From an uncultured Bacilli bacterium (GTDB lineage: Bacteria; Bacillota_I; Bacilli_A; RF39; UBA660), in assembly GCA_944358445.1 (NCBI GenBank), contig CALVRC010000005.1:1-64000 (forward strand): DNA of 64,000 bases. The letters are read 5' to 3'. Below, one piece after another: positions 19,406 through 22,184 of the stretch. The notes beneath the pieces are model-generated. The model made no database searches. It was given only the letters and a program-made list of their open reading frames with translations, and was not told the origin of the DNA. A program made the position numbers and the translations under genes. The stretch's first letter is position 1. The number at the start of each line of letters is the position of its first letter.

Positions 19406-20305
19406 ATGCATTTTCTTAAAAGTTTTGTAGCAGGTTTATTTACTTTAGTTTTTGGAGTTTTGGTGGTTGCGACTATATGTGTTTTTAGTATAAGTGCTTT
19501 TGCGACTAAAGATAATATTGTGAATAAGATGCAGGATACAGACATATTAACTGAGGTTAAGAAAATTAGAAATAGTGGTAGTACTGAAGGTGCTAGTGGA
19601 GTTACGCAAGTTATTGATGAGATGTATTCTTTAGCTTCACAATTTTCAGTTTCTGAAGAAGTGGTTGATCAAATTATCGATTCTGATTTAACTAAAGAGA
19701 TTATTGGTGAAGCGGTTGGAAATTTAACTGATTATATGGTTAATGATAAAGATACAAAAGCATTAACTGAAGAAGATGCATATAATTTAATAAGTGATAA
19801 TTTAGATGAAGTTTTAGAAGAAAACGATTTAACAATTGATGAAGGTCAAAAAGAAAAATTTTTAAGAGAAGTGGAGAAACAACTTCCAGATATTATTGAA
19901 GTTATTCCTACTTCTGAAGATTTACTTGGAAGTAGTTATGGTTCTGATATAGAAAGAATTCAAATAATTTTTAGCGATAATACAAAAATACTTTTATGTG
20001 CGAGCTTAGTTATAAGTGGTGCGATAGTAATTGTTCTTAAGAGAAAAGAATTTGAATGGTGTGCGAATTTAGGTGTTGCATTATTGATTGCTGGTCTTGT
20101 GACGATAGGAATATCATTTGTTATGCCGGGAATGGTTATCGATATTATGGGAACAACAGATTTATCAATGTTTGCTTCATCTTTAACAGATGCGCTTGCG
20201 GAGCCAATTTTATATAGTGGTATTGGTGTTCTCGTTTTAGCAGTACTTCTATTTATTTTCTATAAGATTATGGAAAAAAGAAGAGATAATAAAATTAAGA
20301 GCTAG
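19406..20305 (+). CDS. Hypothetical four-helix membrane protein
   Basis: 299 residues. One hydrophobic helix lies at 8-30, followed by an outside acidic helical domain of about 150 residues (many Asp/Glu, for example EEDAYNLISDNLDEVLEEND). Three more helices lie at about 190-290, then the basic tail KRRDNKIKS. This layout (helix, large outside loop, three helices) recurs in uncharacterised Firmicutes membrane proteins. I cannot name a family. GAGGGTGAT precedes ATG. Its last bases overlap the convergent XRE gene by 4 bases. Confidence 0.75.
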   Translation: MHFLKSFVAGLFTLVFGVLVVATICVFSISAFATKDNIVNKMQDTDILTEVKKIRNSGSTEGASGVTQVIDEMYSLASQFSVSEEVVDQIIDSDLTKEIIGEAVGNLTDYMVNDKDTKALTEEDAYNLISDNLDEVLEENDLTIDEGQKEKFLREVEKQLPDIIEVIPTSEDLLGSSYGSDIERIQIIFSDNTKILLCASLVISGAIVIVLKRKEFEWCANLGVALLIAGLVTIGISFVMPGMVIDIMGTTDLSMFASSLTDALAEPILYSGIGVLVLAVLLFIFYKIMEKRRDNKIKS

Positions 20306-20526
20306 ACTGTTTCTTTGTCTAACTCTTTTTTGTTTGTTCTACCTAAAATGTAATCAGTACTAACATGATAAAAATCAGCTAGTTTTATTAATAAATCAAT
20401 AGGTATATCTCTTTTGCCGCTTTCGTATAAGCCATATTGTTGTCTGGTTATTTTTAGTATATTGGCAACTTCCTTTTGATATAAGTCGTTATCTATGCAC
20501 AAATCTTTAAGCTTCTTTAAGTACAT
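20302..20526 (-). CDS. XRE-family HTH transcriptional regulator
   Basis: 74 residues, essentially only the helix-turn-helix: LCIDNDLYQKEVANILKITRQQYGLYESGKR, then IPIDLLIKLADFYHVSTDYILGRTN. It is divergent from the TasA-type surface protein gene, and the intergenic region holds a consensus promoter with a palindrome in its spacer. It may control itself and that gene; this is inference from position. Confidence 0.9.
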   Translation of the reverse strand: MYLKKLKDLCIDNDLYQKEVANILKITRQQYGLYESGKRDIPIDLLIKLADFYHVSTDYILGRTNKKELDKETV

Positions 20527-20705: not shown

Positions 20706-22115
20706 ATGAAAAGAAAATTCAATAGAACTAATAGAAATTATATAATAGCCGGATTATGTATGATATTAGTAATAATGGGAGTAGGGTATGCGGCGTTTTC
20801 TAGTCAACTTAAAATATCAGGAACATCAAATATAGCAAGTAACTTTAGCGTAAGAATATCTAATATACAAAGTAAAGTTTTAAATGGTAATGCGAGTGAT
20901 GCAGAGGCACCAACACATACAGATACAACAGCAACATTTAAAACCAATTTAGTAAGCCCAGGAGACAGTATGCAGTATGATATTACAGTAATTAATGAAG
21001 GAGATATTGATGCTGTACTTAACAGTATACAGGTAAATACTGGAAATAATGATGCTATATTATTTGAAACATATGGAATAAATGAAGGAGATGCCTTACT
21101 TAAAGGAGCAACTGATGTACTTACAGTTATAGTAAGATATGATAGTAGTGTGACAAGGCAACCAGAAAATACAGAATCAACAATAACTGTAACATTAGAT
21201 TATGGGCAATCTAGTGGAACAGCAGTGCCAGGTGGTGCAGTAACACTTCTTGGAGGACAGTCTGTAGATGTTGTTGATAGTGGAGATGGGCTATATGCTG
21301 ATGAATATGAGTTCGGAAGATATATTTATAGAGGACAAAACCCAAATAACTATATAACATTCAATGGAGAAACATGGAGAATCATAGCCAAAGAAACAGA
21401 CGGAACATATAAAATAATTAGAAATGATGTTTTAGCAAGCCGACCATTTGATGAAGCAAATCACCGAAGTACAGAAAATAACTCATATTGCCAAAACTCA
21501 GAATACGGTTGCGGAGTATATGCAGCAGTTGATGAAACATTTTCATCACCAAGTGGATCACAAAGTGGAACAGTCACCGAAGATTCTTCTATAAAAATAT
21601 ATTTAAATGATGATTATTATGTAAATAATTTAAATAGTACAGCTAAAGGACAAATGACTTCTCATTTATTTAATATAGGAGCAGTAGAATGGTTAGACCA
21701 AAGTGGAGCTGAAGCAGATAGTATAGAAAAAAATATAGCAGGAGAGAAAATGGACCAATGGACAGGAAATGTAGGACTAGCTAACGTATCAGATATCTTA
21801 AGAGCAAGTACAAACCCACTATGTACATCAGCAACAACTTCTATAGAAGGTACAAAAAATGAATGTAATAGTAATTACTTATTAGATAAAGGAGCAGCAA
21901 GTGGATTACATTACTGGACAATAAATGCTTTTTCTTTCGAGTCTGGTGGTTATTCGTCTCACACCTGGAAGGGTTCTGTGACTAGTTCATACGCGTCGAT
22001 GAACTTCATTTCTGCGCACAATATTCGTAACGCTCCCCGCCCAGTTGTCTTTTTGAAATCTGATACTACTTTGAGTGGAAGTGGAACTTCAGAAGATCCA
22101 TTCACTATAGTGTAA
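20706..22115 (+). CDS. TasA-type secreted surface protein with variable-region-like C-terminus
   Basis: 469 residues. The N-terminus has a basic start, one helix (IIAGLCMILVIMGVGYAAF) and then SSQLKISGTSNI, the pattern of TasA/camelysin-type exported proteins. A beta-rich domain with VSPGDSMQYDITVINEGDI follows (about 75-155). From about residue 195 a second domain starts (GRYIYRGQNPNNYITFN, WRIIAKE) and ends in PRPVVFLKSDTTLSGSGT. Between residues ~410 and ~455 base and codon use change abruptly (see the 21937-22070 entry). The ATG has AAGGAGAAAGG upstream. Confidence 0.8.
   Translation: MKRKFNRTNRNYIIAGLCMILVIMGVGYAAFSSQLKISGTSNIASNFSVRISNIQSKVLNGNASDAEAPTHTDTTATFKTNLVSPGDSMQYDITVINEGDIDAVLNSIQVNTGNNDAILFETYGINEGDALLKGATDVLTVIVRYDSSVTRQPENTESTITVTLDYGQSSGTAVPGGAVTLLGGQSVDVVDSGDGLYADEYEFGRYIYRGQNPNNYITFNGETWRIIAKETDGTYKIIRNDVLASRPFDEANHRSTENNSYCQNSEYGCGVYAAVDETFSSPSGSQSGTVTEDSSIKIYLNDDYYVNNLNSTAKGQMTSHLFNIGAVEWLDQSGAEADSIEKNIAGEKMDQWTGNVGLANVSDILRASTNPLCTSATTSIEGTKNECNSNYLLDKGAASGLHYWTINAFSFESGGYSSHTWKGSVTSSYASMNFISAHNIRNAPRPVVFLKSDTTLSGSGTSEDPFTIV
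21937..22070 (+). other. GC-rich, codon-atypical 3' block resembling a DGR variable region
   Basis: Upstream codons of this gene end mostly in A. Here they switch to C, G and T (TTC, GAG, TCG, CAC, ACC, GCG, CGC). G+C in 21961-22020 is 29 of 60 bases, against 16 of 60 in 21841-21900. The block lies in the last part of the protein, just where DGR variable regions lie in their target genes, and is followed closely by GC hairpins. No reverse transcriptase or template repeat is inside the window, so this rests on composition and position. Confidence 0.45.
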
Positions 22116-22144: not shown

Positions 22145-22184
22145 AAAGGCGAAGCCTTTTAACGACCGCGAAGCGGTCGTTTTA
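22145..22184 (+). terminator. Two adjacent hairpins built on GCGAAGC, probably including a terminator
   Basis: Hairpin 1: AAAGGC (22145-22150), GAA, GCCTTT (22154-22159). Hairpin 2: AACGACCGC (22161-22169), GAA, GCGGTCGTT (22173-22181), followed by TTT. Both contain the exact heptamer GCGAAGC, known as an unusually stable DNA mini-hairpin. The second can act as an intrinsic terminator. Confidence 0.75.

Follow-up and report, generated by a model that had tools for sequence, protein, structure and literature searches.

Related systems

Diversity-generating retroelements (DGRs) with several targets and several templates have already been described (PMC4891356, PMC6642488, PMC10907252). In Treponema denticola, one reverse transcriptase (RT) locus is accompanied by several dispersed targets of the TvpA family, which carry a C-terminal variable region (VR) in a C-type lectin fold. 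These targets are outer-membrane lipoproteins (PMC10907252), and strains that lack the RT and the template repeat (TR) retain leftover targets (PMC4891356). In the DGR of Bordetella phage BPP-1 (Mtd), the transfer from TR to VR is directed at adenines, Avd acts beside the RT, the invariant 3′ block differs between VR and TR, and a hairpin downstream of the VR is required (PMC3240598). Roux et al. (2021) described modular targets with the VR in a C-terminal C-type lectin and an enrichment of DGRs in Firmicutes, in a survey that was unable to detect remote targets (PMC8144416).

The window analysed here is a stretch of 64,000 nucleotides of contig CALVRC010000005.1, from a 1.43-Mb draft genome of an uncultured Bacilli bacterium that is 91% complete. 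The relatives of this genome are uncultured Bacilli MAGs, among which Candidatus Coprosoma is the sole named genus. An earlier note, made from the letters alone, had proposed a DGR target at the 3′ end of one gene of the window. This proposal is supported by a DGR elsewhere in the genome, a cassette in a sister species, divergence between copies at template-adenine columns and a predicted lectin fold, and the stretch is very probably a variable region, written by a DGR, in a lectin-type surface protein.

The kind of system is a known one, a multi-target cellular DGR. It resembles that of T. denticola in having one RT locus, several dispersed targets and a C-terminal VR in a C-type lectin fold (predicted for the window gene), and differs in phylum, in target family, in the use of anchored Gram-positive-type proteins with several kinds of anchor, and in the three template-like repeats at its RT locus. 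It shares with BPP-1 the A-directed transfer, the pairing of Avd and RT, the VR/TR difference in the invariant block and a candidate hairpin downstream of the VR (PMC3240598), and with the targets of Roux et al. the modular build and the VR in a C-terminal C-type lectin (PMC8144416). Unlike BPP-1, the system is chromosomal, and no phage or viral relative was found. A phage origin was considered and rejected, as neither the target family nor the RT had a match in IMG/VR and the target had none in phage records.

Probable target gene and its predicted fold

The target gene (20706-22115, forward strand, as are all features of the window given below unless stated) was taken from the list of open reading frames and encodes 469 aa, with an AlphaFold model of mean pLDDT 85.6. 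From N to C terminus, it is laid out as an anchor helix, a beta-sandwich and a C-type-lectin-like domain. The hydrophobic helix, a putative signal or anchor, spans residues 7-34 (20724-20807) by both model (H7-34) and sequence. The beta-sandwich (residues 44-173; 20835-21224) was delimited by the model and by structural alignment, and is TasA/camelysin-like in the paralogue on contig C18. The C-type-lectin-like domain (residues 181-469; 21246-22112) is taken from the predicted structure. A small helix-turn-helix-like ORF, possibly a local regulator, lies on the minus strand just upstream of the gene (20302-20526).

The full-length and domain-only models were both built from 39 sequences. Modelled alone, the C-terminal domain reached a pLDDT of 93.8 and a pTM of 0.92. 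The nearest solved fold to the entire domain is 9qa6, the N-terminal domain of the Thomasclavelia ramosa IgA peptidase, published as C-type lectin-like (PMC12237041). The domain-only model aligns with it at Z 17.3 over 207 residues (rmsd 2.9) with 14% sequence identity, and residues 181-469 of the full-length model align at Z 16.9 (VIA-align). The DGR variable protein of T. denticola, 2y3c (TvpA; Z 5.7), and further C-type lectins aligned weakly. Foldseek listed only the N-terminal sandwich for the full model, with poor scores, and nothing under E 0.001 for the domain alone; the assignment comes from structural realignment, and the domain is predicted to adopt a C-type lectin fold. In this predicted structure the VR sits near the end of the domain, where DGR targets usually carry it (PMC8144416). 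The protein may well bind a ligand at the cell surface.

The earlier note had also called the protein TasA-type, and this label holds weakly. The paralogue on C18 matches Pfam Peptidase_M73 (camelysin/TasA) at 24.7 bits (cut-off 22.5), but the window protein had no match to this family up to E 1 and none to any Pfam family over cut-off.

Composition and extent of the variable region

The variable codons were placed at 21930-22031 on the basis of copy divergence, template-adenine columns and a shift in third codon positions. They lie within a stretch (21925-22050) that is homologous by blastn to a DGR template repeat of a sister species (G014:C66:1095-1223), and are directly followed by a conserved, IMH-like invariant block, GCTCCCCGCCCAGTTGTC (22032-22049). 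The G+C counts from which the proposal started, 29/60 in 21961-22020 against 16/60 in 21841-21900, agree with our recount. Over 21937-22070, G+C is 46%, compared with 35% for the target gene. Taken alone, this composition is only mildly unusual, since the G+C of 21932-22054 is equalled or exceeded by 4.8% of the 123-base windows in the 64 kb. The third-position shift is a much stronger signal. Upstream of the variable stretch, third positions are 51% A and 8% C; within it they are 5% A, 26% C, 24% G and 45% T, which bears out the sharp change of codon use near the gene end that had been noticed at the outset.

The invariant block also distinguishes targets from templates. After the VR it reads ...CGCCCAGTTGTC, compared with ...CGCCCAGATTTC in the templates of the sister genomes G014 and G009 and ...CGCCCAATTTCC in those of C19, the contig of the RT in the window's own genome. 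The ends of the block are ...CCCAGTTGTC in the VR, versus ...CCCAGATTTC (G014, G009) and ...CCCAATTTCC in templates. As read from these alignments, the difference matches the IMH versus IMH* pattern. At its 3′ end, the window VR has CCGCCCAGTTGTC in common with the VR of C19.

Two hairpins follow the stop codon, AAAGGC(GAA)GCCTTT at 22145-22159 and a 9-bp hairpin, AACGACCGC(GAA)GCGGTCGTT, at 22161-22181. The latter is a candidate for either a DGR target hairpin or a terminator. A 7-bp form, TAAAGGC(GAA)GCCTTTA, was found after most sister targets. Of the genome's own seven copies of this type, four (C13, C15, C4 and the C2 fragment) showed no similar hairpin. The BPP-1 type is a GC-rich hairpin with a 7-10 bp stem and a 4-nt GRNA loop; the 9-bp window hairpin differs in its 3-nt GAA loop, and both window hairpins in their distance of ~95-110 bases beyond the invariant block.

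Same-type copies and anchors

At least seven ends of the window type were recognised by sequence in the genome, scattered over contigs C5 (the window), C18, C9, C15, C13 and C4 and a fragment at C2:26 kb. With the C2 fragment left out of the comparison, pairs of copies diverge by 7-17% upstream of the VR, 4-16% downstream and 26-39% inside, with the exception of C9/C18. For the window and its same-genome copies the figures are 26-38% in the VR and 4-14% in the flanks. The window and C18 differ by 7% and 4% in the flanks and 26% in the VR (p=5e-9); the window and C15 differ by 11% and 4% in the flanks and 38% in the VR (p=2e-11). At the level of aligned copies, these data demonstrate hypervariation confined to the VR between near-identical flanks. 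The VRs of C9 and C18 are identical, and the two genes (L211 and L210) share 272 identical bases spanning the VR while differing by ~10% elsewhere. This identity may reflect gene conversion, or one cDNA written into two targets.

Using the sister templates (G014, G009) as a proxy, the VRs of the genome were found to differ from one another at 0.56-0.64 of template-A columns compared with 0.27 elsewhere (permutation p <= 1e-4). The direct comparison of the window VR is weaker. It differs from the G014 template at 17/35 A columns versus 22/79 non-A columns (p=0.03), and the A bias against the G009 template has p=0.15. Direct A bias between the window VR and sister templates is thus only weakly apparent and constitutes the main soft spot of the DGR case; weak bias would be expected if the species' own template differed from those of its sisters.

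In this genome, one C-terminal domain stands behind differing N-termini. The helix and beta-sandwich are found in the window, C18, C13 and C4 genes, and a short anchor in C9. The C15 N-terminus is prepilin-like, with weak ComGE/ComGD matches; its gene (L020:886-2319) fuses a prepilin-like start, GFLLAESL, to the variable lectin domain. With a domain profile, this genome yielded 42 matches, and the count rises to as many as 99 in G030 (split matches counted). That every copy of the domain is a DGR target was considered and rejected on evidence from both genomes. The G030 template matches a single clear VR, a second repeat pair and a few places only weakly, and in the window's genome the composition jump is restricted to the seven window-type copies among those scored. 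Judged by sequence, only part of the domain matches can be called DGR targets.

Reverse transcriptase loci and templates

The check for a DGR-type RT, expected away from the gene, gave a positive result. A single RT was found in the genome, on contig C19 (L017:12427-13530), with an RVT_1 match of 63 bits (over cut-off) and the motifs IGNETSQ and YMDD, which conform to the DGR type ([ILV]GxxxSQ, YxDD). Among solved structures, its best-scoring relative is the 8ub7 series 'Reverse transcriptase' (99 bits), which we take to be the BPP-1 DGR RT; a group II maturase scores 45 bits. An Avd gene precedes the RT, with 44.9 bits for Pfam bAvd (cut-off 40) and 48.6 bits (E 8e-13) for NCBIfam DivGenRetAVD, the latter below the curated cut-off of 80. 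Upstream lie three AAC/AAT-rich template-like repeats (TR1-TR3) and a 982-aa target gene, and all 11 differences between TR3 and the target VR fall at template adenines. By these features the genome carries a DGR locus at C19. The window gene is distant from it and would therefore be a remote target. The three C19 templates belong to another VR type than the window VR. A relative of the RT is present in 33 of the 44 genomes of the genus.

Further pieces of the C19 locus were observed elsewhere in the genome (G000). Over 2671 bases, the C19 target gene (C19:7780-10450, VR included) is repeated exactly at C2:~84-87 kb, followed there by a block that equals TR1 save one A to C and by a VR-type end block; this may be a recent duplication, a template/target recombination or an assembly chimera. 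A TR2-like stretch (C18:11666-11752) lies near the N-terminus of a ~300-aa ORF without a signal peptide, a position unlike the usual C-terminal VR, and 10 of its 26 differences are at adenine.

Cassettes with a template of the window type were found in related species. On contig C66 of the sister species G014, the window-gene homologue comes first; behind it stand, in order, a template repeat, two ORFs resembling MutS_I and Avd (the latter at 33.7 bits, short of the Pfam cut-off of 40) and an RT that is 46% identical to the C19 RT. The VR (747-869) and TR (1095-1217) differ at 25 of 123 positions, 23 of them template adenines. In a third cassette, in G025, all 21 TR/VR differences are at template adenines. 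In G009 (contig C13), target and TR are kept, and a ~1-kb deletion took the avd 3′ end and most of the RT; the scar (L107, G009:C13, 2274-2291, versus L150 2177-3222) leaves a short RT tail. Between template and avd stands a separate ORF with a match to MutS domain I (L150:1498-1908; L107:1596-2006). MutS-like accessory genes have been described for DGRs. Comparison of the repeats demonstrates A-directed change from template to VR for this VR type in a sister species (G014), and the same process probably acted on the window copy. In such an event, A-mutagenised cDNA of a template repeat would have taken the place of the sequence from about 21925 to 22050; as the template is AAC/AAT-rich, randomising its adenines could not create a stop.

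The A-biased near-copy foreseen by the earlier note was found beside the homologue in G014, but not in the window's own assembly. There, no template of this VR type turned up with the window sequence or with the G014 template plus flank as query, and a predicted template, with A placed at the variable columns, matched VRs alone. The G014 RT as query matched the C19 RT alone. A weak match at C13:25522 was rejected as an A-rich but template-unlike stretch, and ORF108-like genes at the start of C4 were dropped as a marker of the missing locus, with no RT, Avd or template there. Absence from a 91%-complete assembly implies that the window copy would be an orphan, or else a remote target whose template was not assembled.

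Origin of the variation

The orphan reading is a sub-case of the DGR explanation that differs in predicting no present activity: template and RT of this VR type would have been lost, leaving a frozen VR that spreads by gene conversion only. Orphans do occur, given the precedents of G009, which keeps target and TR with the RT mostly deleted, and of the leftover T. denticola targets without RT or TR (PMC4891356), and the single RT, the lack of a matching template in the assembly and the identical VRs of C9 and C18 point the same way. However, 9% of the genome is missing, such repeats break assemblies and a gap is indistinguishable from loss, and the window copy retains an open frame, the invariant block and the downstream hairpins. 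We consider a frozen orphan a serious possibility, if a somewhat doubtful one. That the C19 RT and Avd diversify the window gene in trans, from a template in the unassembled part, seems rather unlikely, although the genome holds one intact RT with Avd, the three templates already at C19 make extra ones plausible, and CCGCCCAGTTGTC is common to both VR types. The RT that stands beside a window-type template in G014 is only 46% identical to that of C19, and its cassette has the MutS_I-like ORF, so that templates of the window type may depend on a different lineage of RT. If the missing template lies in the unassembled 9%, either the C19 RT or a second, undetected RT may act on it.

Explanations without a retroelement fare worse. 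Gene conversion among paralogues combined with diversifying selection could draw on many paralogues (42 domain matches) and would suit the 272 identical bases of C9 and C18, VR included, amid neighbouring sequence that is ~10% different. It leaves unexplained why differences gather on template-adenine columns, why A is nearly missing from third positions and why TR/VR pairs beside RTs differ at A only; as the sole cause it is highly improbable, and conversion can also act on top of a DGR. Chance heterogeneity of composition or a horizontally acquired segment could produce the G+C value, which 4.8% of windows reach, but the jump occurs at the same place in all seven same-type copies (0.28-0.35 to 0.48-0.56) and is missing from the six other scorable domain copies (0.29-0.33), and flanks are 83-96% identical between copies where the VR stretch is 61-74%. 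The probability of this last explanation is negligible.

Implications

With this probable target, uncultured gut Bacilli gain an example of a chromosomal DGR that serves several targets. What is fresh is the host, an uncultured member of the Bacilli related to Candidatus Coprosoma, and the presence of one variable domain on TasA-like, prepilin-like and short anchors. Targets far from their RT escape contig-based surveys by design (PMC8144416). Two finds, the scar left by the RT deletion in G009 and the tip shared unchanged by two genes, make DGR loss and the spread of tips by recombination testable. A wider reading, which we offer as speculative and on balance improbable, is a genus-wide diversified lectin repertoire, in which gut Bacilli with genomes of ~1-1.5 Mb would hold up to 99 domain matches on varied surface anchors (TasA-like fibre proteins, type IV prepilin-like proteins, short anchors and long Ig-like proteins), the tips would be written by a single DGR or a small number of them, and gene conversion would spread the successful ones, giving a standing, heritable binding repertoire. 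With one variable lectin domain carried on filament-type, pilin-type and short anchors, the system could tune attachment in the gut.
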